A stretch of DNA of 64,000 bases, from positions 682,001 to 746,000 of the forward strand of contig JAACJP010000015.1 of assembly GCA_013368375.1 (NCBI GenBank), read 5' to 3'. Both the position numbers and the translations under genes were made by a program. Of the stretch, positions 1-37,767 are shown one piece after another; position 1 is the first letter of the stretch, and the number at the start of each line of letters is the position of its first letter. Under the pieces are notes generated by a model that ran no database searches, had not been told where the DNA came from, and worked only from the letters and a program-made list of their open reading frames with translations. The stretch comes from Tricholomella constricta (taxonomy: Eukaryota > Basidiomycota > Agaricomycetes > Agaricales > Lyophyllaceae).

Positions 1-2376
1 TACGTTCTTGGTCAGTAATGGTGGCTGGGGCAGGTCTGGAAGTCGCGCAGCGGGTGACGACGCCAGAGAAGAAACGCTGGAGGCTGTGGTCGTTTGTGAA
101 GAGGGCCTTTTTGCCGTTGGCTAAGGTTGTGATCTCAACTTTTTCCTCGGATAATAATTATCGATGGGTTGTCAATGTTTCGGGTCATTCCGAATCTCCT
201 GACAAGGTCTTCATATCTAAAAATTCAACCACCCCAAACTCACTGGCCTGCCTGTTGCTGCTCGCGAGGGAGGCGTAGCCCGGAGCATTCGTTCCATTAT
301 GCTTTAACTTTCAGGGTTGGCCGTATCCCGCCGTAATCGATTGTCGAGATCACTGACAACATGCGGGAATTCAGCCACCAGTTCCAAACTGAGCATCGAA
401 GGGCAGCATAAACTACAATGGTGCGAAGGACATTTGACAGATTCCTATCTATATATCAACCAACCAGCTCCTCCTTCTTCTCCAAGTACCCCACTTATAT
501 TTGCCCTCTAAGTGCAACGCATCCCACACAGGCACACCTGCGATCAGCCTCTCCGAATTCAAACTCCTCGTTCTCAGCCTCGGTATTTTATCATTTACGA
601 CGCAAGCTGAACGCGTATTCAAAGCAGCAGGACTGACTCGTCGGAAGGTCCCTCACGGCGGCCACTTATTCTTTTTTTTTGACAGCCGAGCTGTTTTCCA
701 GAGTGAGGCCAAGCGTATGGGCCTTGACGCCGTGGTCGTGTTAGCATCAGAAACATATCTAGGCGTCGACAGCCTTGGAAACATCCCTCCATTCTCGCCG
801 GGCTCCACAAGGTACCGTTTCTATTTTGCGTCTGACATCTTCCCCAATCACCGGTCCCGCAATTGAAGGGGAGCGGATTCAGCGGAGCCCCCCTCCCCCC
901 CAGTGCGACATGCGACATGCCGAGGAAACGCTCTGCCTTCGGACGTTACTGTTTAGTGTATCGGATATAAATACACCTGCCCATGTCTAAAACATGGAAC
1001 CACGGTCCCACACGCCTCTCCACTGATCATCCGGACATCCGCACGGGGAGGGGTCCTCTTAGTCCACTGGGGTGTCGTCCATTTGGCATAGATCTGCCCG
1101 CGTACCCTGCACATGCTTCGATTCAATACAGCACCTTGACACCTGCGGCCATCGATTAAATATCTCCCATGATCTCGTCTGAATGGAATACACACACACA
1201 CATGTATGTACAACCAGAATATATTGGGGGCGCTCGCGAGAGAGAGCTCCAGACTTTCACAGCCCTGGAGCTTCGATTTATCTGTCAATCAGGGACCTTG
1301 TATGTATGTAACATAATGCTGGTAGGGGCGGACTGACCGACCCACTTCGATCGAGGAATCGCCGAGTCCGAGTCTGATAGAGTTGTTATCCCTACAGCAT
1401 GCCGTTCACTATCTTACCTTTACCCCTGTCCCGAACTCCCACCTGCTGGCAAATTAATACCTCCGAGAGCATGTCTTCGTCTCGATTAGCGCTTGCATGA
1501 ACGCTGCTGCATAAGGCAACTCATTACTCTTTTCTCGAACGAAAAGGAAAGGTCGGTTGTCACTCGAAACATCTAAAATTCCTCCTTTCCCGGAAGCTCA
1601 GATGATAACTTAATGTCGTTGCTGCCGCTGGCGATATCTTATCCCCCTTGGGAGTGAGTCCTGGGTCCTGGTTGCAAGGCAATGTTATGTTGCAGTTAGC
1701 CGTTTTTCTCATGAACTCTTTAAGCCGAACTGAGATGGCCTGGGTTTCCCGCGGAATTTCGTTTTTGCCTCCTTCAGCTATTGTACTTACTGTATGTGTG
1801 TGTGATCTGCCAAGTGCGATCTTTTCATATCGGCCGACATTGCTGGCTTCCCAGCCAGCCTTTGAGTTCTCGAAGCCCCGTCACAAAAACGAGGCATCCA
1901 TACCCACGAAACCGGTGCAAACGGTCCTGGCTGCGATCATTACGGGGGAGGGAGTGGCTTCGAGGAATGGGATATGATTGAAATCTATCCAGGTCGCAAC
2001 TTATTTCTACCACTAGCACACAAACGAACACGGGGGGCTTTCACGAGGGTGACAGCGCGAGAACATCTCATTAGCGGAAATTTCCCGTTACGTCGAATCT
2101 TCGCGCGAGCGCTCGGAGGGTCCTACTGTATGACTTGCCTAAACAAGAAATTGGTTTCTCTCGTTACGTCTTTCTGTACCTACAGGGTGATAGCGCTCCC
2201 CACGACCACGCGAGCCTTGACTACGATGCACTGGTTAAAACAGAGTGGATCTCTGCTGGGAGACTCCGTGCAAAGGATCTATGCTCCCAAGTCCTGCTAA
2301 ACCCGCCGATTAAGAGGTAGCGGCCGAAGCGGGGTAGATGTCGCACTATGTAACTCGCGTACGGGGAGAGTGAGGT
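1..2376. other. No supported gene (intergenic or decayed DNA)
   Basis: I find no open frame here with a recognisable domain or a convincing exon chain. A short plus-strand reading at about 501-866 is open but resembles nothing I know and has no clear start or continuation. A CA/TG microsatellite lies near 1190-1206. The last bases before 2377 are the 3' flank of the minus-strand PTPA gene. Confidence 0.5.
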
Positions 2377-3672
2377 TCAGGTACGGGCCCATGGGGCCTG
2401 AGTAGCATGATCGTGGAGGTTCGCCACGTCCAGCGGCGGGGGCATGGCTGTATCCGAGCCCAAGCTGCCGTTATCCCACTCTAGCAGCCCTCCCAAGGGA
2501 AGGTGCTGCACGACGACCCGCTTTCCTAGGACTTCGGCCTAAAAGAAATCGAGCATTGAGCACCTCACCTAATTCCTGTCAAACCCTTCCAGAAAGAAAG
2601 TGCTTACTTCATACATCTTAAACAGCCCCGAGTTGACTTTTCTCCAGTTTGGGACGCCCACAGCGATGGAATGCAGCTGCGAAGAGTGCTCGTGGAACGG
2701 CCCGAGCTTGACTTGCCGAATCCGCGTGATCTGCATGAAGTACAGGTTCGTCGACGGTAGGTCAGGCTGCAGGACAGCCGACACCGGAATGTCGCTCTCT
2801 GAAGTGAAAAGTCTTGTCAGTGGGAAAATCCTCGGCGACAGGGGTAAATAAGACAAACCTCGTAGCTGGCCGCTTCCAAATATGTATCCGAGGAAAGCAG
2901 AGTCGTCAAGGCCCCAGACCCCATGGCTCCCTGCAGGTTCCAAGCGGTATGTGTCTTGCAGCTTCCAACAGAGCTGCAAATATCGCACAAAGACGCTTAG
3001 AACGAGGTCACACTCCTCTGCCTCGACCGGCTGATAGAATCGCACAAGCGTCAAAGCGAGCATGAATAGACCGAATGACGTCTCGTGTCCTGTTCCATAG
3101 TCCATCCTCGTGAATGACCCAAAAGAGGTCAGAAGCAGCGGTTTTACATGGGGTTTTACGGCAGAGAATTCGGCAGTCAAGAGAGAGTCCAGCAGACCGT
3201 CCACCCTCTTTGAGTATAACGCAAAGGAACATTAATTAATCTCTAGGGTTAACAGAGTTTAGATAAGTTGGGCCAACCTCTTCGAGACGCGCACCCCAGG
3301 TGCGAAATGCAAGGTTTCCAAAGCGCTGGGGAGAGTCCTGGGGTGGTATATCAACAATCCACCGGTCTAATGTGTCCAGGAGCTCCAGTGTCTTCAGGAT
3401 CGCCTGACAGGACAAGATCAGCCAAGGGTCCGCGACGAGTGGAGCATGCAGGGCTGTACTTGGCTCGGAGTTGAATTCCAAGGCAGGAATTTCCCGACTA
3501 CGGCTTCGTTTAAGCGGCGCAGAAAAATTGCATAGTCTTGATACGATTGCTTTTTCTTCCAGGCCTGGACGTCGTTATCGGTCTTGATTTTGGGTCCTGG
3601 GAGCGTTGCGATGTCTGACAGGGAGGAGAGAGGTACTTCACGGAGTTGCGATATAGATCCAGTCTCCGACAT
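2377..3672 (-). CDS. Serine/threonine phosphatase 2A activator (PTPA / Rrd family peptidyl-prolyl isomerase)
   Basis: The product is the phosphotyrosyl phosphatase activator, a cytosolic/nuclear protein known to help assemble and activate PP2A catalytic subunits. Five exons give 346 aa, a normal length: 3460-3672, 3278-3403, 2859-3207, 2608-2798 and 2377-2538. Family signatures are the stretch LDTLDRWI..IPP, RFGNLAFRTWGARLEE, SFGSFTRMDYGTGHE, GSHGVWGLDD and, after the last intron, AEVLGKRVVVQHLPLG. The 56-nt first intron (3404-3459) restores continuity between AVVGKFLP and AILKTLELLDTLDRW. The segment after GSGQLR is shorter than I expect for the family. The gene is divergent from Ku70, 248 bp apart, so the two may share a promoter. 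Recognition is confident. Exon ends are inferred. Confidence 0.93.
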
Positions 3673-3920
3673 GGCTTTGTGAAATATGTAGTGGTTTTAT
3701 ACAGAGATCCTTGAGGAACTTTTGAGACAACGTGAGGTTGTGGTGGTGGTGGTGGTGGTGGCGTCTAGAATTGTCGCGCCCGATTTGGGCGGATGACTCG
3801 GGGCGTGACTCGAAGTGACATGTGCCGTGACCGACGCGACCTCATAATACCTTGTTTAGCCATCACTGCGACCTTTGACGTGTGTGCTACCCATTCAATA
3901 TTCTATCATAAAAGACCACT
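3673..3920. promoter_or_regulatory. Bidirectional intergenic region between PTPA and Ku70
   Basis: These 248 bp separate the start codons of two divergent genes and must contain both 5' UTRs and core promoters. A (GTG/TGG)n triplet repeat lies at about 3739-3762. I could not identify a TATA box or a specific factor site with confidence. Confidence 0.45.
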
Positions 3921-6900
3921 ATGGCGCCCTACGATGATTGGAACAAGATTGACGAAGAAGAGGATGAGGAACTGCAGGACGCAGCAGTGAGTTGTCAACG
4001 AACTTGGTCTCTTCGTGACGACGACGACATCGTTTCCAGTATTTTGAAGGAAAGCGAGACGTTATTCTATTTTGTATCGACTGCTCAGAGTCAATGCTCG
4101 AGCTCCGGGACGATCCCGACTATGAAGATACCCAAACATGTCATCTCTTTACGGTCCTGGAAGCCGCTGTGCAGATTCAGAAGAAGAAAGTCATAGTCGG
4201 ACCTAATGACGCTGTTGGAATCATGCTCTTCAACACGGTGAGAAATTGAATACTCTGTACGCATCACCTCACACTATAACTTCGTGACATCTAGACTAGA
4301 AAGTCAGAAACCAGCCGGACGCAATCAGAGCTCAAGAGGGGCACCTACGCGTACCAGCCGATATCTCCCCTGAGCGCCCCGACGATACAAGAGACAATTC
4401 AACTGCTGGATGGTTCGTGTATCTCGAATGAGCGGCTTGCAGCACTTTTCAATTAAATTCCTTTGAAAGCTTTTCGTGAAGATCCTGAAGAACTACGCCG
4501 CGCCTTCCCCCCCGTGAAAGGCAAAAAGGTCCCTATGGGAGACGTCTTTACGAGCTGCAATTGGGTCCTCCGGGATGGGTTAGTCTAAAAGCATGGGGAT
4601 CACGGAGGCTGCGACTGAACCTTGAATCTGCAGAGCTCCCAAGACTGCGACGAAGCGAGTCTTCCTTATCACGGACGAAGACGACCCCCATTCCGGCCCC
4701 GGAAGTCAGCAACTTATAACGTCCGCGAGAACGACGTTGATTGTAAAGTGCCCATACGCACCGTTGCGGCTAATCTCATTTTAATAACAGGACTTGACGC
4801 AAGCTGGCGTAACTGTGGAGCCGTTCTTCATCAGTACTCCAGAAAAGCCTTTCGATGTCTCGAAATTCTATTCTGTAAGCCATACCTTCCGCTGTGTATT
4901 TCAACAATTGATCGAGAGCGTCTAGTCGGTTTTACTTCCCACTAACCTTGCTGACGAGGACGAAATAGACTCGTCAGACCCGTCCGTTCTTCCAGAGTCC
5001 ATTTCTATCTCGCGTATTGAGGACCTCCTTGCCCAAATGCGCTTTCACGAAGTACCGAAACGTGCTCACTTTAGCATTCCGTTCAAACTTGCCGAAGGCC
5101 TCTCCATTGGCGTTAAAGGGTAGGCAACGAGGATATCTCACCGTTTCCCTTGACTGATGCGAGGTCATGGGCTGATAAAGGTATGGCCTAGTGACTGAGC
5201 AAAAGAAAGGCACCTACAAGTACTTCATCGATCTCGGAGAGAGGATGGAGGTGGCGTCAGTACGCACTGTTTATATTGATGAGGTGTGTACTTGTTGCCA
5301 GAGTAGTTCACGAAAACCCATAGTTCTCTGCAGGCTAGAGAAGCGGAGGTCGACAAGAATAAGATGGTTTATGGCATGTCGCTTGGCTACACTGCAGCAG
5401 CCGCCGAGGAGGACGAAGAGGACGAGAGCAAGATTGACTCAAATGTCAGGATTGTGAAAGTAGGAAAACGAGTAAGCTACACGCCCGACCCACTTCAGAA
5501 CACTTTGTTGACGAACAAACGAATCAGCCCTTCTACACAGCCGAAGATATCAGGTCTTTCCGAACCTTAGGTCTAGAACCAGGTGAGCCTGTCATTATTT
5601 CGACAGCCTTCTCGATCGTCACACTGGCCCAGGCATCAAGCTTCTGGGGTTCAAGGATCGTAATGAACTGGCTTTTGAAGACAACATCAAACACTCGCAA
5701 TTCATTTATCCCGACGAATTGGTGAGGTTAGGCACAATACCTCCCGACAGAGTTTGACATCTCGCAACAGGCTTATTCCGGCAGCAAACGCACTTTTAGC
5801 GCTCTTATCAAATCATTGGTGAAAAAGAAGAAGATTGGACTCGTGTTGGCTTTGACGAGAAAGAACGCTACACCAATGTTCTACGCGCTCCTACCCCAGG
5901 TTCTTTTCATGATCTATTTTTCCCGGGGTCTGCAGACCATCTAATCGACGCATATGGCCCTCTATTTTAGGAAGAGAAGGTAGACGAAGGAGGCTGGAAC
6001 GATCCTGCAGGGTTCCACCTTATTCCGCTTCCATTTGCGGACGACATCCGTGCAGCGGCAGTGGAGAAGGGCTTCCGGGGTTCGTTATCCGCCCATGTGG
6101 TCGAGCCAGGCCGGCGGACTGACGTGTCTTCTTTTGCAGCCTCGGACGAGCTCAAAGACGCAGCTCGTGCCTGGATCGATAAACTATCTGTGAAAAACGG
6201 AGCATACCCGCCCGATTCGTATCCCAACCCTGGTGAGTTCTGGTGTGCATGCAACCTTACTATCTCCTTTCGCTTTTTCGCCACGGTCCCCCCAACCCAA
6301 ACTAATATGGATATGGTGTGTTCTTCCCGTGCGTGTTAATCGAACAGCACTGGCGTATCACAATGCGCAGCTGGAGGCAAGCGCGTTCCGGGAACAATAT
6401 GATCCTGATTCGTTTGAAGACCTCACGCTCCCCAAATATGAAATGATACACAAGGTGCGTGTGGTGATAGTGGTGGTGGTGGTGTTTCCGCTCCGCGACG
6501 TGGTTCTTGCTTGACATCTGATATCTCTCCGTTCTTCACGCAGCGCGCTGGAGCTTTGATGAAGGCCTGGAAAAGGGCACTGGTGAATGATAAGTCAGCT
6601 GACGTCGTCACTGCTCCCGGTAAACTCGCCGGGACGAAACGCAAGGCTGCAAGTCTCTTTCCTCTCTCCCTTCTCTTTTAGTCGTTAACAAATCAATTGC
6701 CTCTATACAGGAAATGAGTGTCGATGAGGCGGAGATTCGCAGCATGTATTTGGCGGATAATCTGGGGAAGGTATGTTTTTATTTTATTTTGTGCGCCCTC
6801 GGATTAATCTCATTTGTATGTTCCCTGCAATCTCCTCGGGATTTGGTTTTGTGTCTCCAGATGCGTGTGGATCAGCTGAAGGTAAATGATAATAAAAACA

Positions 6901-7061
6901 TGGCCGTGTCGATCCCAGAGAACGTTATACTGATGCTACGGAATTGGTCTTCCTTTCTTTCCTTCTTTATTCAGGAGTTCTTGAAAAGTAGGAGCATGCC
7001 TGTTTCGGGGAGGAAGGCTGACTTGATGGAGCGTGTGGCTGAATGGCTTGATACGCATTGA
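3921..7061 (+). CDS. KU70: Ku70 subunit of the non-homologous end-joining Ku heterodimer (C-terminal SAP domain)
   Basis: Ku70 pairs with Ku80, encircles DNA ends in the nucleus and starts non-homologous end joining. It is also a ring-associated telomere factor in many fungi. The first exon starts MAPYDDWNKIDEEEDEEL and is followed by the vWA-like N-terminal domain (DVILFCIDCSESMLEL, VFLITDEDDPHSG, DLTQAGVTVEPFFIS, FDVSKFYS). The Ku core follows (GTYKYFIDLGER, FYTAEDIRSFRTLGLEPG, IKLLGFKDRNELAFEDNIKH, GSKRTFSALIKSL, LALTRKNATPMFYALLPQ, GFHLIPLPFADDIR). The C-terminal exon (about 6975-7061) is a SAP-type DNA-binding motif, FLKSRSMPVSGRKADLMERV. More than ten short introns interrupt it. Two intronic GTG repeats are visible. 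No disruption was found. The large transposon lies only 219 bp past the stop codon. Confidence 0.93.
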
Positions 7062-7280
7062 GCAGAACTTTAACTCTGTGACTTCTGTCTTTCTTTGAGT
7101 TTGCGCACTTCCTCCCTTCACCCCCCCTCCTTTTGCCCCTGATCTGCGTGGTTGTGGCACCTTGTATCTATGTATTTATGTATGTATGTATGTCATTCGT
7201 CTCTTCCTTCATTTGGGCAGACGCTCATTGTATAGCTAAGTATGTATAAATGATGAACGTCCCTCGACGGTCGAGACTAA

Positions 7281-7355
7281 CACCGGAGGCATTTCCCACG
7301 GCATGTTGTACAATATGAATTCACTTCACTTGACATGTACATCAAGTGCCATCAT
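7281..7355 (+). repeat. Left terminal inverted repeat of the CACTA-like element
   Basis: It matches the reverse complement of 17675-17749 with four substitutions (positions 15, 29, 44 and 69 of the repeat). Within it is a perfect hairpin-capable palindrome, CACTTGA-CATGTACA-TCAAGTG. The TAA just outside is the target duplication. Confidence 0.92.
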
Positions 7356-7454
7356 GAGGAAAAGTCAATCAATTACATAATGAAAAGTCTAGTGCAATTC
7401 TACCTTTTCGGTAGTTGGAAATCGGAACGGCGAGATATCGGATTTGGAATTGGG

Positions 7455-7515
7455 AATGGTCACATGAAATTATGGTCATGTGAAATATGACGGTCATGTG
7501 AAATGCATGTGACCT
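7455..7515 (+). repeat. Subterminal short repeats, GGTCATGTGAAAT type
   Basis: The 13-mer GGTCATGTGAAAT occurs twice within about 30 bp, and close variants (GGTCACATGAAAT, GCATGTGACC) lie on either side. Clustered subterminal motifs in CACTA elements are known to be transposase-complex binding sites. That role is inferred here. Confidence 0.5.
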
Positions 7516-7598
7516 CATTTGTTCCTTGTCGACGCGCACCTTTGTGCACCTTTGTCCTGTCCTTCCTATATTTCCTTTGTTACATCTTCTCTTCTTCA

Positions 7599-9101
7599 AT
7601 GTCTTCCCCTGCAGGACCGTCTACACCCAAGCGAAAGAGAACAACTTCTTCTTTCAAGAATTCTCCAGATTCATCGCGGAAGAAACGAGGCGTCATACCC
7701 CCTGATACTGATTCTTCAAGGTTTAGGCAAAACGTCTATCATCTGAAAAAAGGGGATATCCCAGATGATGCTAGAGGCTTCAAGGTAAATTCTTAATTTC
7801 TTGCATTTTTGCCTTTGCTTTTGCCTTTACCTTTGTCTTTGTCGTTGTCTTTGTCTTTGTCTTGAACTAATATTATATTATGTTGCAGACTGCTTTAGAG
7901 ACACACCTTCGTATACTTCTGGGTGCTGTTACCAATGTTTCAGTCCCAGAGCAACCTGATGTGCATGCCATCCGGACTTTTGAGCAGCGGTTCACCATTG
8001 CTAGCGAGGTTGATCGGTTGCTGAAAGGCAATCACACGAGCTTCCAATCTGTCGACCAATTGGCACTGAATGCTATCAGAGAGCTTCGAATCAAGTGCGC
8101 CACTGATCCCACTTCTTTAATCGTTCTTGCTATTGGTCGAGTTCCAGAAAATGCTCTTCGCATGATGTTTGGCACGATTCATTCCTTTGGTCTTTCTTCA
8201 TGGTGTCCTGACCTCATCGGTGGTACCCCAACATCTTCCTATAACGGTGCTCTCGAATCCATTGCTATATGGACTTTCGAGCAATCTGCGTCCATTTTTG
8301 CTTACCAACATCTCTCACCAAATCTTCGCTACCTCAAGGATACGATCATGATACAGAAGCTGTATCGTAACTTTCTGTGGTCATATATGAAGGATTTGGT
8401 TCTGAAGGAACAGAAGGAACCTGGAAGCCTTGTTCGAGCCAAACAGGAGAACAAGGCTTATAAACATCGTCTGGAGGTATGAGATTGCTTATTTCTACAA
8501 TAATTCTATTCTTATTATTTTTTGACAGCTAACAAATCGCCGCCACAAGTACCTCCATGATAATGGTTGGAATGATCGTGTTCGGCTCCTTGCTGTTGAC
8601 CCAGAATGTACCTCGGATCAGGAAGACAATCCCACTGGACCTGGATTTCTTATTATGAACAAACCTGCTCGTAACATCCACATCACCCATTTCCTTCACA
8701 CAATCGATTCTCGTCGACAAACTGGAACCCCTTTGTTTCGTGGTCAAAAGCGTAACACTCGGCGTGAAGAGCCTCGAATTCCCCATCCTGAAGGTCGGAC
8801 GAGCCGGATATCCGAACGTTTACCTCAAAACTGTCCTTTGGATTGGTTCTCTCCTGCTTATTTCAACAGCATGGATATTACTTTCCGTGCCCTCTATATC
8901 AAAGCTCCGATCGCTCTTCCTCTCAAAGACGCATGTGACTCAAATCCTACTCCGGACTGGAAGAAGATGCCTGAAGACGAGTTCATGACAAAGTATGGAA
9001 ATTCAGTCAAAGCACTCTATAACCTTCCGACAGAGGAAGAATTAGAGCTGTTGAACTTGGATAACAAGGACAATGAGGATGAGGATGGGGACATGTTGTA
9101 G
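7599..9101 (+). CDS. Transposon passenger gene A, unknown function (448 aa)
   Basis: Three exons (7599-7784, 7889-8476, 8529-9101) join in frame to 448 aa. The N-terminus is basic and Ser/Pro-rich with a nuclear-localisation-like KRKR. The middle is helical and contains LYRNFLWSYMKDLVLKEQKEPG and RRHKYLHDNGWNDRVRLLAVDP. The C-terminus is strongly acidic (NLDNKDNEDEDGD). I recognise no domain. The general look is that of lineage-specific, multicopy hypothetical proteins of mushrooms, but I cannot check this. Its place just inside the left terminal repeat and its intact frame suggest it belongs to the element rather than being captured by chance. It might be an accessory DNA-binding factor (the role of plant TNPA), but nothing in the sequence proves that. 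Confidence 0.7.
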
Positions 9102-31036: not shown

Positions 31037-31124
31037 CACGTGTACGGTTGCCTGGGAGTCCAAGGTCTAATTTTTCACACGCGACTTTTTTTTTTCCCAT
31101 CAGCAAACACTTACCCTTGGCCTG
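31037..31124 (+). repeat. Left terminal inverted repeat of the alpha-kinase transposon
   Basis: It begins near CACGTGTACGGTTGCC and ends near CTTACCCTTGGCCT. It matches 36590-36677 on the other strand. Confidence 0.88.
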
Positions 31125-31289
31125 TCCCCCTCCTCGCTGTTCGTTACATATGTACTCATGCAGCACTGCTGTTCATCTCTCCACTAGCTAAGATTTGCGT
31201 AGCTCTGGTCTTTGAACACTGTACCACGTCACTGGTGAGCTGGTCATCACTATATCTACTCACTTTGACTTATGAGTGTACAGCACATA

Positions 31290-31657
31290 CTATGTTACCC
31301 TGTACATTCGTCAACCCCGGTCATTCGTCGTTTTGAGAAAATCTCACCTCTTACGGCTCCTACTGGTCTGAAACTTGAGATGATGTACTTTAGAATATAT
31401 TGGAACCGTTTCGTGAAGGTTTGACGTTGAGAAACGAAGTATAAAAGAAGTCCCTTCTGAGGAGAGATTTTGGGCGTGATGCTTAGAAATGTCACTCTGC
31501 CGTGCACGCCGAAGGTGGAGCTTCAAACTATTTCGTCAGGCACAGGGCTAAATCGTCAGTCGTCGCTCTCGGGTGAAGCCAAATTTGATGGCGGCGAGTG
31601 TGACCTGATGTGACTCTGACGAATGACCGGGGTTGACGAATGTACAGGGTAACATAG
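31290..31657. mobile_element. Nested MITE, 368 bp, with 40-bp perfect TIRs and TA target duplication
   Basis: The first 40 bp (starting CTATGTTACCCTGTACATTC) are exactly the reverse complement of the last 40 bp. TA flanks both sides (31288-31289 and 31658-31659), the target choice of Tc1/mariner-type elements. There is no coding capacity. It lies just inside the left end of the larger transposon, upstream of the alpha-kinase-like gene. Confidence 0.85.
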
Positions 31658-32336
31658 TATTGACTGGCTCTGCGGCATCGTTTCAATCTGTAGCGCTCCC
31701 AATTATATCGCAAGGTCTCGCTTCTTTCTCTGGGCCTAGACGGGATTCGGTCACGATGGACTTTTGCACGCCGTGTACAGCCGGCCCTCTGGTATCGCAT
31801 TTATGTTGGAAAAGGTCCCGAGGCTTCACGTATGTCCGTCACTTTGCTTTTCAAGTTGCCGCTCATTTACTCTTTCAATGGGACGTGATATGTCCGCTTG
31901 GGCTTTGACAGTTTCATGCCTCAATTTCGATGATACGACGTGCAGGATCATTTTCTTTCACGCTGCTCCCCTTCCCACACCCTCTTCCTCCCGCTTGTGA
32001 ACCACCACTGCCTTTCTTGCCTCCTTAGTCTTGTCTATATAGTGATATTCTCGGGCCTCATCTAGCACCTTCCCAAGCCTGATAATGAAAAACTTTCTTT
32101 GCCTGATTGGCAGGTTCAACTTCCGGTTCATTCAATTAGAAAATGGATACCGTCATTACAGATATTGATTTTTGAGCAACAAGTGTCCATGATCACCTTG
32201 AGTCCTTGTTTCTGCGGACAGCTACATAACTGTCAGGCTATTTTAAATCTATTGTGAACCGACAAAAATCCTGACATATAAATTGGGTGCCGATTATTGT
32301 AATTGACACCTCACTCCTCATAGCAACTTGGAACTA
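31658..32336. other. Non-coding interior of the transposon, 5' region of the alpha-kinase-like gene
   Basis: I found no gene. The region must contain the promoter and leader of the alpha-kinase-like gene. Confidence 0.45.
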
Positions 32337-34651
32337 ATGGGCGTCACTTGCGAGGGCTGTGGCATCTACTTCGAAAACCTTAAGGAGCAGAAGGCCTGCG
32401 AGAAATGCAAAAAACGCGATGAAGCAGACGACGATGTTAGCCGGGGTGTCGTGGAGGTAAGTGCACGATTCATTTGCCATCGTGGATAAGATTTTCAATG
32501 TCGCTCTGTAGAAACTAGGCCAATGCCTGCACTGCGGGCTCACTTACAAGTTCTTGAAGGGCATAAAGTGTGGACGATGTGATCGCCTCCACAACGCAGG
32601 CTCAAAGGGTGAGAGTACCAATCAAGACCATGACATAGATCTGATCCATGTCATACAGTGGCCGACGCTGAAAACATGCCGAGCCCCAAGCCTGCCAAAC
32701 AAGCCATGAAGGCAAAGGAGGTCATTAGCATTATTGATGATTCCGATGATGGCGACAACTCTCGAAACTGTGTTCCCTTTGTCATGAGTGACGACGAGGA
32801 AAACATTCAACCTTTAAAGGACGCAATTACTCAGAACCGTAAGAACGCGACAAAGATTAGACTCACACGCAAGGATCCCAGCATACCAGAGCGGACAAAG
32901 AACTTTTTGAAGTTGCGAGAAGCGTCTCGTCAACATGATCCCTCAAAGCTCAGCTCCATCCTGTTTAGATGTGAATTAAGCCTTCAGACACGAAATGGAG
33001 TGAAGAAGGGTACCCGAGTTCCTATGCAAACACGAGGATTTGCAAGGGATGAGGTAATGTCACCGATGCCGACTCCTACCTGATGCCCAGAATTGACTTG
33101 ATGTTGGCCCAGCTACTTAAAGATGTCTACAGGAAGCTCATAGCGATGTTTACTGAGCCCAATGGGCAGTGGGTAAAGGAGTTTGGGAATAAGAGCATCG
33201 ACGAGTAAGTTTTCTCATTTCTTTATTCAAAATTCAGGCACTCACCGAGAATATGAAAATTTCAAGGTCCAAAGTCCATTTTACATTCAAAAATGGTACC
33301 GCAATCGTGCCAAATCAGCGAGACCAAACTGTAGAGCAGTTCTGGAGGAAACACAGTCAGATTTTGGATATTTACATCAAGAAGGCTGACATCGCAAATA
33401 ATGCCGTCCTGTTGATGATGCTTGTCCCTATTGAGACCGTGGAAGTATGTGTGCGCTTTTCATTATTCTGGAAGCAAGGCTGAGAACTGACTCTGGCATT
33501 TCCAGTCGGACTCTGGATCAGACACAGATGTTTTTGACAAAATTCTGGCTGGATCTAAGAGAAAACGCCAGCAGAGATCGTCGTCCCGGAAGAAGCAAAG
33601 CACAGGTGTCAAGGTCAAGAGAGAGGATTCTGATTCAGACAAGCTACCTCCATCGAAATCTTTGGTGAAGGAAGAAAGAGGTGGTATGTGCTTATGCTTT
33701 GAACGTGATATCATCCTCTCACGCACCGCCCAGCATCATCAGCACTTTCAAATGCTACCAGACCATCGACACGCAAATCTTCTGGCCCTCTCATTGGACT
33801 CACACGCCAGGTTCGCGTGACACAAGAGCTCTACGTTGATCATAGTGATCTATCCTCTGCCATAACCTATGAATTTGATGGAACTCTCACCATCATGCCA
33901 ATAAAGTCACCTTTGCTTCCGAACACATTTGAGGTTTGTTTATTTTTTGGGTCATCATTTTCAAATTTGCTGATCGTACAACTCTGACAGCTCCATATTG
34001 GTACCCACCACTATTTGGCTCGCCGTATTGAAGGCATATCAGCTCGACTGTCAGTCACAAAAGAAAAGACAGCTGCACAAACAGAGATTTTGCGGAGCGG
34101 CTGGCTAAAAGCGACCATCAAATCTTTCAAGGCTCTTTGCGTGAAAGAGCAGGTCACCTTTGATGGTGAGAAGATTGTCCTTTTTTATAGTTGTAATACT
34201 CATTCAAACGGGCCATTTACTAGATATTACAACACCCAACCTTTTTCTCGCCATGGTAAAGGAGTCGGGATCTGCGGTCTCTGTGTCCAATGAGTGTTCG
34301 GTCACTACCTTCGTCTGTCAGCCATCCATCCCATCAAGTGACATCACCACCGATGAATCCTCCCCACTGTTGGGTGCCTTTTCTCATTACTCATTAGCTG
34401 AATCAAACCAAGAGCGTGTTTTGGTGGACTTCAAAGGTACGCAGATCGAAATATTGATTACATTATCAAAGTTGATTATTTTCCCAGTTTGTGAAGATAT
34501 TTATGGTTCACAAGATGTTTTTGCGCCGATTACCCATACCATCACCGCAGACTCCGGGACTGGTAACCTTGGCTCTAGCGGGATTGAAGCCTTTAAGAAC
34601 AAACACCAGTGCGGCGAGCAATGTAAGGCTTTGAAATTGCCTGCCTTCTAA
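32337..34651 (+). CDS. Alpha-kinase-like protein with N-terminal Cys clusters and SUMO-interaction-like motif (transposon passenger)
   Basis: Ten exons (32337-32456, 32512-32608, 32659-33053, 33113-33204, 33267-33444, 33506-33683, 33734-33933, 33991-34165, 34224-34436, 34488-34651) join in frame to 603 aa. Residues 1-70 hold four CxxC pairs (CEGC, CEKC, CLHC, CGRC), a likely zinc module. Then comes EVISIIDDSDDGD, a textbook-looking SUMO-interaction motif. A basic SKRKRQQR patch and Ser/Lys-rich linkers follow. The last 270 residues match the C-terminal half of alpha-kinases: LLGAFSHYSL, VLVDFKG, THT, GTGNLGSSGIEAF and HQCGEQCKALKL, the His/Cys zinc site of that fold. I could not see the ATP-binding Lys and Gly-rich part clearly, so activity is uncertain. 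It is convergent with the transposase gene of the same element. Confidence 0.72.
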
Positions 34652-34797
34652 CGTGCTCCTACGCAACTTCTACCTATTATGGACAACTTAATTCATTGAT
34701 CCTCCCATCTTACCATCATTTTGCAGCCTACTCAGTCTCCCTTAATAGCTGCCCTTTTCGTTTCCCCAGTATGCAGTACATTACAACATTGCCCAAT

Positions 34798-36511
34798 CTA
34801 ATTCTCATCAACCGCTATATAATCAACTAACACGCGAAAAACATCCCAGGCAGAATGAAGAGTAATTTTTGGCCTACCCACGGCAATATAGGCTGTGTTT
34901 GCAATCTCTTCGAACTCCTCATCAACATATTGCATAAGGCGCCGTCCTTCGACAGCCTCGTCGAGAAGCTGATCAAGGACATTGATGTCAATGTCAATCA
35001 GGCACGACTGACCTCCGTAGCGGTCTGGATGTCGATAGAAATCATTGGGTGTACCACCACTGGGAAGGTTCTTCTCCTGCTGACGACGGATGCGATGATT
35101 ATTTTGGGTGTCAACAAAGTCGTCGAGTTCACGTTGGATGAGCGGAAACCATATCCAATTTGACATCTCCCTAGTCACAATCAATATTGTTCAGCGCGGG
35201 TGTAGCAAAGTGAAAAATTATGACAACTTACTTGTGGACCTCATTTTGGGCCTCGTAATATGCACCGTGGATGCCCGCATAGTAGAACTGTAGAATATTC
35301 ACTCCCCATGTATGAAACAAAGGACGCCAACCACGCTCGATTGTTATATTTTTCGGACTTTCAAGAAATCTCCATGCCGGTACAAGTGCCTTTAGCAGGT
35401 CTGGAGCAAAGTGATCGCTGCACAAAGCATTCAGATTGCAAAATAGAGATACAAAAGTGATCCTTGATTCACCGAAGTGCAGAAAAAATTGAAAAGGCAT
35501 CACGGACTTCTGAACCACGGTCAGTGGAGCCCTGAACGGCCATGCCTGAGACATCATCAAACACGAACTTCATTGAGAAGCAAGACATATTTTTTACCTC
35601 CGACTTTCTTAATGCATTCCAACTGGATGACTCCAACAACGGCGGCGTACCAATTAGATGGAACCACCTTATAGTAATGCCATTTCCCAGACCACTTATC
35701 ACGGATCCCATATATATCAAATCCTGCAACACGTAACTTGTCGTGGCCATCCATAGACCACTCCTCGTCAGGCCCAATACCTGTAAGTGGCGACCGTTTG
35801 ATCTGCTTCGACACTGGCATGCGTTTGTCGAAGCTCTCATCTGCAAAGTCATGCATGACCGATTCTATTTTATTCCTGTACAACGACACATTAAAAATGA
35901 GCGAAAATTCCTAAGAAATTGAATCTCACCGAGTGATGTGCTGCCCTTTGAGTGCGAGCCGTTCCTTAATTGTCCGAGGGCCCCTGGTTTGCCTGGGGTC
36001 GTTCCCAAGCTCGTCCAGTATCATTTGAGTGGCCTCGATATCGGGTATCAGCTTCTTTCGAGAACTGCCGATGCCCGTTTCCTTGAGGTACTTCGCCAGT
36101 GTACTTCGTCTGTAATATTCAATGAAAATGGGAATCCTTGACAATGAGAAGGCCACGCACCCGATTTTATATCCATGATCATCAGCAAGCCTCTCTCTCA
36201 GTGTTTCGTACCGGGTGATGTTGTTACGATTATAACCACGAAGGATCTCCTTCAGATCTTCGGTTAGTGGAGCTGAGGGGATGTCAGTTCTGAGCGTGCA
36301 CTCATGTGCAGGGAAATCATTACTTACGGACTGCGCCGTGCTGGTTTCTACCAGTTGGATTTCTGTTGTGCATCAGCTTCCCGCCACTATCACCTGCTGC
36401 AGAATTGCGGGAAGGCAACTCGGCGACATCAGACTCCTCATCGGTTCTTTCAGGAGCATCGTTGTCCGAAGTTCGACCATCAGCGGCGCGCGGTTTGTCC
36501 TTCCCCGTCAT
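34798..36511 (-). CDS. DDE integrase-type transposase (rve-like core)
   Basis: Seven exons (36328-36511, 36161-36272, 35930-36109, 35598-35875, 35473-35545, 35232-35417, 34798-35170) join in frame to 461 aa. The N-terminus is Asp/Glu/Ser-rich. A helix-turn-helix-like region follows (LTEDLKEILRGYNRNN, LADDHGYKIGRSTLAKYL). The catalytic core shows the three acids: Asp in EEWSMDGHDKL, Asp in QGSTDRGSEV, Glu in NITIERGWRPL, with the IYGIRDKWSGKW strand between the first two. It recalls integrase-core proteins common in mushroom genomes. I cannot assign a named superfamily. The C-terminus has an NDFYRHPDRYGG segment and an acidic end. Its start is 79 bp inside the right terminal repeat. Confidence 0.78.
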
Positions 36512-36589
36512 GATGGTTTATTTCTATGTAGCACAATAGACTAGAAGAAGAATGGCAGAAAGAAATCGAATAGGCGGAGGATGGGAAAC

Positions 36590-36677
36590 CGAGGCCAAGG
36601 GTAAGTGTTTGCTGATGGGAAAAAAAAGGTCGCGTGTGAAAAATTAGACCTTGGACTCCCAGGCAACCGTACACGTG
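36590..36677 (-). repeat. Right terminal inverted repeat of the alpha-kinase transposon
   Basis: Partner of 31037-31124. Its outer end is 32 bp before the start codon of the Maf-like gene, so it probably lies in that gene's 5' leader or core promoter. Confidence 0.88.
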
Positions 36678-36709
36678 ACCACAATCGCGCCTCTTCATCG
36701 CCCACTACG

Positions 36710-37767
36710 ATGTCAAAACAAGTTCTGCCCCATGCCCTCCAACTACCAGCGATCAAAAAGCTGTCAGGAAAGCGAATTGTGCTAGCATCTAACAGTCCGA
36801 GAAGGCAAGAAATCCTTCGCACATTCGTACGTGCTGGCTTGTTCTTGCCGTATCAAGGCTTACAGGCAAACTTAGGGTCTCGCGCCAGATATTGTGCCTT
36901 CGGTATTCGAGGAGGATTTATCTCCGGATACATTTGACGATATCCACGAGTATCCGGTGGCGACGGCGACTCACAAGGCCGTAGAAGTGTACGAACGGCT
37001 TGTGGTGAGACGCTTTGTCGATCGACATTTCAAAGGTCATTGAATTTAATCTAGAGTGAGGACGCAGACAACGCGCCAGACCTGGTAATAGCTGGTGAGC
37101 TTCATACTTATCTCTACGCTTGTACGCCCAATGACGAGGCGGAAAGCCGACACGATTGTCCTGAGCCATGCTCAACCTATCACCTCGGATGTGTCCCATA
37201 CGGTGTTCCCGATTGTGGACCAAGAGCTGCTGGAAAAGCCCTCCTCCAAGGAAGACAACCTTCGAATGCTCCTTGACCTGAACGGGAATGTCTGCGAAGT
37301 GGTGACGGGCGTTACGGTCGGTAAGCATAGGAGCACTTGTCGCGATCATAATCACAGGCCTTACTCCCTAATTTACAGTATACCCGGTACTAACTGCTCC
37401 TGGATACTCGATAAAGTAACTCATACCGACCTACGGGCAAACCGAGTTACTCACCCGCATGTCTTCAAAGGTCCATCGATGAACGCACCTTGGTGTATTT
37501 CGCCGATAATCCGCAGCATGTCGTAAAAGCCTACGTCGAAAGCGGCGAAGGTGTTGACCGAGCAGGTGGTTTTGCCATTCAGGTATTTTCTTCCGGATGT
37601 TTGGTACTGTGCCCGCTGAATTGAAGGGATATCATCAGGGACTTGGAGGTCTTCTGATTCGCAAGATCGAAGGCGACTACAACAACGTGGTCGGGTTTCC
37701 TGCGGCGTCATTCTTCGCTTTCCTGGATCTTTTACTGGAAGAGGATCCGGACTTTTTGCAGGTGTAA
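36710..37767 (+). CDS. Maf/HAM1-like nucleotide pyrophosphatase (ASMTL-type Maf domain)
   Basis: Maf proteins hydrolyse non-canonical or modified nucleoside triphosphates in the cytosol. Seven exons (36710-36826, 36876-37004, 37055-37094, 37147-37320, 37379-37415, 37471-37582, 37639-37767) give 245 aa. Signatures are RIVLASNSPRRQEILRTF at the start, APDIVPSVFEEDL, VATATHKA, ADTIV after the third intron, KEDNLRMLLDLNG, GEGVDRAGGFAIQGLGG and IEGDYNNVVGFP. The start codon is 32 bp from the end of the transposon's right repeat, so the element has replaced or pushed away its native promoter. Confidence 0.9.

Follow-up and report, generated by a model that had tools for sequence, protein, structure and literature searches.

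A 64-kb stretch of the 44-Mb genome of the agaric mushroom Tricholomella constricta (the window, C15:682001-746000; coordinates given without a contig prefix are positions within it) contains a two-gene element that extends over 5,629 bp, from 31043 to 36671, between terminal inverted repeats (TIRs) flanked by a target-site duplication (Table 1). The genes, one alpha-kinase-like and on the plus strand, the other encoding a DDE transposase and on the minus strand, are convergent, with their 3' ends 146 bp apart. Their ten and seven exons, respectively, join in frame without stops, and the resulting proteins of 603 and 461 amino acids are identical over their full length to the deposited T. constricta proteins D9615_005815 (P0058) and D9615_005816 (P0001), in agreement with the two convergent genes and intact frames proposed in an earlier note on this DNA.

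A search for inverted repeats recovered arms at 31037-31097/36617-36677 (97% complementary) and at 31088-31123/36592-36627 (100%). The arms are nearly identical, as the earlier note had it, but the length of 88 bp given there is too long: the TIRs proper measure 81 and 80 bp, and the rest is the 6-bp duplication CACGTG, which is palindromic. One substitution and one indel separate the left from the right TIR, and the termini read TACGG...CCGTA. A scan around both genes for TA..TA ends (at least 16/24 matching) accompanied by a 6-bp duplication (at least 5/6 matching) returned a single pair, scoring 24/24 and 6/6; in the control, 10 shuffles of another 9.9-kb locus (L045), nine gave no match and one gave one. 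The ends, the duplication and the gene content are direct observations. Since the duplication is intact and the arms are nearly identical, the insertion is probably recent and the element young, consistent with the two-gene DDE transposon of the earlier note, which had read the intact frames as a sign of selection or youth.

Superfamily and related short elements

The catalytic acids of the transposase, D201, D260 and E303, lie within WSMDGHDK, STDRGSE and TIERGW, the motifs in which they had been predicted. All 38 aligned homologues match PF24764, and this domain was assigned to the window transposase; at E values of up to 1, NCBIfam models match 27 (IS3) and 11 (IS481) of the 38. A transposase of Crassisporium funariophilum (P0002) shows 68% identity to that of the window. 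Residues 1 to 242 contain no cysteine, and the protein is thus without an HHCC zinc domain before the core. The helical N-terminal region is probably a helix-turn-helix (HTH_21 is found in 12/38 homologues), and the fold is predicted to be an IS3/retroviral-integrase-type RNase H core.

By its termini, duplication length and transposase relatedness, the element most likely belongs to the IS3EU superfamily. According to the text of PMC10045372, the termini of complete IS3EU families are without exception TA..TA and their duplications usually 6 bp long; for the IS3EU families of rusts, PMC12730594 gives TAYGG..CCRTA termini, TIRs of more than 30 bp and duplications of 6 bp. The TACGG...CCGTA termini in the window fit both patterns, a 6-bp CACGTG stands on both sides, and the transposase is of the DDE type related to IS3/IS481, with no HHCC domain before its core. 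IS481EU, for which TG..CA termini and duplications of about 4, 15 or 25 bp are given in PMC10045372, was considered first and was ruled out by the TA termini and the 6-bp duplication.

The terminal repeat is not confined to this place; the earlier note had named its restriction to this place as fatal to its proposal. The outer 27 bp of the element's ends recur, identical at all 10 ends compared, in seven fetched copies of a short element of about 960 bp, which represent a non-autonomous family with at least 15 places in the genome (10 full-length places and 5 that are interrupted or incomplete, with a few small fragments in addition; a lower bound, from a search with one copy whose 59 rows were grouped by hand). 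Identity of these places to the query copy is 95-98%. In six of the seven fetched copies both ends could be placed; five of these six have a 6-bp and one a 5-bp duplication. A 6.2-kb match on C55 was examined as a second full copy and rejected: at 974-7219 of that locus (L009, C55:111000-120000) lies a non-autonomous copy interrupted by a nested Copia-type retrotransposon, recognised by eye, with an open frame of 1543 amino acids.

The kinase-like protein and its relatives in the genome

The kinase-like protein has CxxC clusters in its N-terminal part and a PF02816 alpha-kinase domain in its C-terminal part (residues 520-595, E = 1.3e-8; the score of 35.6 bits exceeds the cut-off of 21.3). Its best relatives of solved structure are myosin heavy chain kinase A (MHCK A; E = 8.3e-7), TRPM7 (1.1e-4) and eEF2K (1.4e-4). 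With these alpha kinases it shares the PF02816 fold family, a glycine-rich stretch and a C-terminal H-x-C-x3-C motif (HQCGEQC); it differs from them by its CxxC N-terminus and by lacking the ATP lysine, the Gln that follows the first catalytic Asp, and the second Asp. At the lysine, where the alignment is modest, the window protein reads ARRIEG and its relative on C3 AKRFFK. The first Asp of the D-x-Q-G motif is kept, with Lys replacing Gln (VLVDFK versus DLQG in the C3 relative). The second Asp, that of the D-P-Q motif, is Ala in a MAFFT alignment (APITHT versus DPMTHT in the C3 relative) and Ser in a HMMER alignment to MHCK A, in which we take this residue to be D766. Overall identity is 24-26%, with a modest alignment in the N-lobe.

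Because the ATP lysine and one catalytic Asp are gone, the window protein is probably a pseudokinase; its losses may reflect either a binding role or decay. The alpha-kinase identity put forward in the earlier note consequently stands for the fold family, as do the CxxC clusters, whereas catalysis by this copy is doubtful. The SUMO-interaction-like stretch also described there (ISIIDDSDDG, at residue 95) is present but carries little weight, since the C24 kinase, the sole relative scanned, has no such motif at the corresponding position, and the suggestion that the protein controls host SUMO or repair responses found no support. A single-sequence structure model of the protein (pLDDT 34) was unusable.

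A census of the genome with PF02816 gave five matches at five loci, all above the cut-off (E = 9.2e-10 to 4.3e-4), which is to be read as a lower bound. All five, the locus in the window being one of them, adjoin IS3EU-type transposases (Table 1), so that the kinase-like and integrase-like genes are neighbours elsewhere too, a point that the earlier note had asked to be checked. The paired transposases are 22-47% identical to that of the window in matched pieces. Those on C22 and at C24:543k were first found by looking beside the kinases, an ascertainment bias that does not touch the evidence from their TIRs and duplications; PF24764 matches the C22 transposase above the cut-off (E = 1.8e-8). 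About 14 transposase-type places were seen in the genome, seven of them PF24764 matches not shown to be IS3EU elements. With 5 kb on either side, the 14 places cover about 0.3% of the genome (hand arithmetic), and the chance of a five-out-of-five pairing is therefore negligible. Two extra kinase queries gave no new locus, a result of little weight since each missed loci found with Pfam (one found the C3 and window loci alone, the other the C22 and C24:543k loci alone). Because every such kinase gene found in the genome adjoins such a transposase, the kinase would seem to belong to the transposon rather than to the host.

The C22 and C24:543k loci contain complete elements (L049 and L050), which are 77-84% identical to each other over the main aligned blocks and allowed selection to be measured as the ratio of nonsynonymous to synonymous substitution rates (dN/dS; NG86, with bootstrap ranges). 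The values were 0.031 for the transposase (297 codons; 0.014-0.054), 0.061 for the kinase (185 codons; 0.028-0.109) and 0.079 for a third, TET/JBP-like gene (136 codons; 0.036-0.155). The kinase was compared in its C-terminal part alone, as the C24:543k copy has lost about 1.1 kb of it. In the exon encoding its C-lobe, 46 of 57 differences fall at third positions, and the ratios obtained in the two wrong frames are 5.1 and 3.3. The kinase of this sister family is under purifying selection, nearly as strong as that on the transposase. The third gene stands after the kinase, not between kinase and transposase. As IS3EU is not among the five TET+ lineages that section 3.2 of PMC12730594 lists for Agaricomycotina, elements of this make-up would be newly described, provided that the TET assignment is correct. 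Pfam Tet_JBP matched it with one fragment at E = 0.079, under the cut-off, and a rough longer model gave no Tet_JBP match; we take the gene to be TET/JBP-like from a motif and from its place in an IS3EU element.

Among the remaining loci, the kinase at C24:256k is open through exons joined by hand, and the pairs at C24:253821-256807 and C3:1753378-1757391, in which TIRs are not recognisable, may be old relics or possibly co-opted. Two further transposase copies, L046 (C2:2241k) and L047 (C3:931k), are 99% identical over about 2.4 kb and thus stem from a recent duplication. TIRs were not found at these places (two scans and one scan, respectively), and the same holds for nine short loci from the PF24764 census (each about 3.1-3.4 kb); there was no kinase match in L046, nor at either place in the kinase census.

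Table 1. The window element, kinase-transposase pairs elsewhere in the genome, and complete sister elements
Feature	Position	Strand	Details
Left target-site duplication, CACGTG	31037-31042	.	Flank comparison; palindromic
Left TIR, 81 bp, starts TACGGTTGCCTGGGAGTCCAAGGTCTA	31043-31123	+	Repeat search and flank comparison
Nested small element	31287-31660	.	Perfect 43-bp inverted repeat around 288 bp; repeat search
Alpha-kinase-like gene, 10 exons	32337-34651	+	32337-32456, 32512-32608, 32659-33053, 33113-33204, 33267-33444, 33506-33683, 33734-33933, 33991-34165, 34224-34436, 34488-34651; reconstruction equals deposited protein
DDE transposase gene, 7 exons	34798-36511	-	36511-36328, 36272-36161, 36109-35930, 35875-35598, 35545-35473, 35417-35232, 35170-34798; reconstruction equals deposited protein
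Right TIR, 80 bp, ending ...CCGTA	36592-36671	-	Repeat search and flank comparison
Right target-site duplication, CACGTG	36672-36677	.	Flank comparison
Kinase beside transposase C24:253821	C24:256610		Convergent; shares CxxC N-terminus; spliced protein 57.9 bits with PF02816
Kinase beside transposase C3:1756306	C3:1753378		Divergent
Kinase inside complete element L049	C22:681287		Perfect 154-bp TIRs starting TATGG; 6-bp duplication CGGAAC; transposase present
Kinase inside complete element L050	C24:543549		Perfect 162-bp TIRs starting TATGG; 6-bp duplication CTGTTG; transposase present
L049	C22:676500-686400; element 499-8870 of locus		Three genes on one strand: transposase, alpha-kinase, TET/JBP-like
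L050	C24:538700-548600; element 1696-8642 of locus		Three genes on one strand: transposase, alpha-kinase, TET/JBP-like

Comparison with known systems

The earlier note knew of no described element of this kind; in fact, the combination of transposase and alpha-kinase has already been described, in passing, for other fungi (PMC12730594). In that account (Kojima 2025), IS3EU families designated TET+ carry an alpha-kinase gene opposite the transposase, and the window element shares this opposed kinase, the 6-bp duplications and the TIRs of more than 30 bp with TAYGG..CCRTA termini. The TET+ families have a TET/JBP gene between transposase and kinase, in contrast to the window element, which has none at that place; with only 146 bp between its two genes, the element belongs to the same superfamily but not to a TET+ family. 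The IS3EU families described there are from rusts and Tuber indicum, whereas the window's host is an agaric. The main text of PMC12730594 does not name Tricholomella, its section 3.2 lists five TET+ lineages in Agaricomycotina with IS3EU not among them, and its account leaves the kinase residues, altered in the window protein, undescribed.

With the IS3EU/GingerRoot superfamily as defined in PMC10045372, the element shares the TA..TA termini, the usual 6-bp duplications, the IS3/IS481-related DDE transposase and the absence of an HHCC domain; the window element has a kinase-like gene, whereas the word kinase is absent from the main text of that paper. Styx of Zymoseptoria (PMC10853768) is likewise an IS3EU-related multi-gene fungal element, and both duplications quoted for it are of 6 bp. 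It differs in belonging to an ascomycete and in having 7.9 kb and four reading frames, with no kinase stated among them in the passages on this element; the authors of that report propose that an ancestral IS3EU element encoded two proteins. Alpha-kinases are reported to be highly expanded in rusts (a table in PMC4469406 gives 79 and 39 genes in two of its columns); they were very rare (1 domain) in an earlier fungal kinome survey (PMC2838846), and a candidate-effector paper reports one among 46 genes under diversifying selection (PMC4150398), as given in the portions of these papers that bear on the family. Our literature search found no paper discussing the role of the IS3EU kinase. What is added here to this prior work is the linkage at five of five loci, the purifying selection on the sister kinase, the probable pseudokinase in the window, and the family of about 960 bp with the same 27-bp ends.

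Role of the kinase-like gene

We consider the element to be an autonomous cut-and-paste IS3EU transposon in which an alpha-kinase-like protein is a conserved accessory, and assign this reading a probability of roughly 0.82. The 461-amino-acid transposase would bind the TACGG...CCGTA ends, excise the element and insert it with a 6-bp duplication, and it would probably also mobilise the non-autonomous family with the same outer 27 bp. The other gene would provide an accessory protein belonging to the element, with a zinc-type CxxC N-terminus joined to an alpha-kinase fold. We suggest, tentatively and at less than even odds, that this protein is a trans-acting helper that enables transposition through an effect on either the transposase complex or a host chromatin or repair factor. 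The helper step may be phosphorylation of a presumed target in the sister families; in the window copy it would probably be binding alone, given the loss of the ATP lysine and of a catalytic aspartate.

A number of observations weigh against this reading. The window kinase has lost catalytic residues, the kinase at C24:256k apparently lacks the ATP lysine too, and that of L050 has the internal deletion of about 1.1 kb; nine of the approximately 14 transposase-type places have no alpha-kinase match in the census. Two scans found neither TIRs nor a duplication at C24:253821-256807 and C3:1753378-1757391. The full element is single-copy in the genome, with no second full one among 12 matches to its ends, and neither an empty site nor transposition was seen. 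Two protein searches with the kinase gave the window's own protein alone, with no relatives outside T. constricta, which is no proof of absence, as scoring covered only about 8000 candidates, those with most 5-residue words in common. As to the transposase, the IS3 and IS481 models give no more than weak matches to D9615_005816 itself (E = 0.14 and 0.076), whole-chain Foldseek TM-scores by query length are low (0.15-0.32 among the rows listed), with only the core domain matching, and a profile search against the sequences of solved structures gave weak sigma-factor matches alone (E = 0.035-0.91).

Some of these observations would suit a decayed or co-opted element, with an intact transposase, a dead kinase remnant, and a copy either immobile or kept by the host for its position 38 bp before a Maf-like gene. 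The single full copy, the catalytic losses and the site between Hus1-like and Maf-like genes are all compatible with such a history, which we nevertheless regard as improbable, as the exact 6-bp duplication, the near-identical arms and the two open frames indicate a recent insertion with little time for decay. Slightly less probable still is that the kinase-like gene was captured a single time and travels passively as neutral cargo. The residues lost in the window's copy, the lysine apparently lost at C24:256k, the L050 deletion and the many transposase-type places without a kinase match could be so explained; the idea is weakened by the purifying selection on the sister kinase (0.061, versus 0.031 for the transposase), by the recurrence of the pairing in other fungi and with transposases only 22-47% identical (matched pieces), and by the fully open ten-exon frame in the window. 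That a host alpha-kinase just happens to be flanked by two unrelated copies of a short repeat merits almost no credence: the 27-bp ends do also bound the elements of about 960 bp that lack these genes, but duplication and TIRs define one insertion, and the idea is already contradicted by the five of five alpha-kinases found beside IS3EU-type transposases, two of them in complete elements with their own TIRs and duplications.

The copy in the window is compact, with two genes and no TET/JBP between them, and hence a simple system for tests in yeast; it is unusual for DNA transposons to keep a protein kinase on which purifying selection acts. The linkage at five of five loci also matters for the annotation of alpha-kinases as host genes. 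If rust alpha-kinases also sit in IS3EU elements, as the text of Kojima suggests for some families, counts of their expansion are partly a measure of transposon load. More broadly, and with a little under an even chance of being right, the alpha-kinase family of Basidiomycota may be essentially a transposon family: IS3EU would long have carried the kinase as a conserved accessory for mobility or escape from silencing, with conversion to a pseudokinase scaffold in some lineages, this one included, and the rust expansions would then mostly be transposon genes.

The small nested element lies between the left arm and the kinase-like gene and appears, by eye, to be a non-autonomous element with a TA duplication. 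As for the surroundings, profile matches identify a Hus1-like gene on one side (two fragments, E = 0.0083 and 1.5e-5, both under the curated cut-off) and a Maf-like gene on the other (E = 3.6e-10, over the cut-off). The end of the element is 38 bp from the predicted Maf-like ATG, the duplication counted in. With the insertion at a CACGTG palindrome this close upstream of the start codon (36672-36710), an effect on the promoter is possible.
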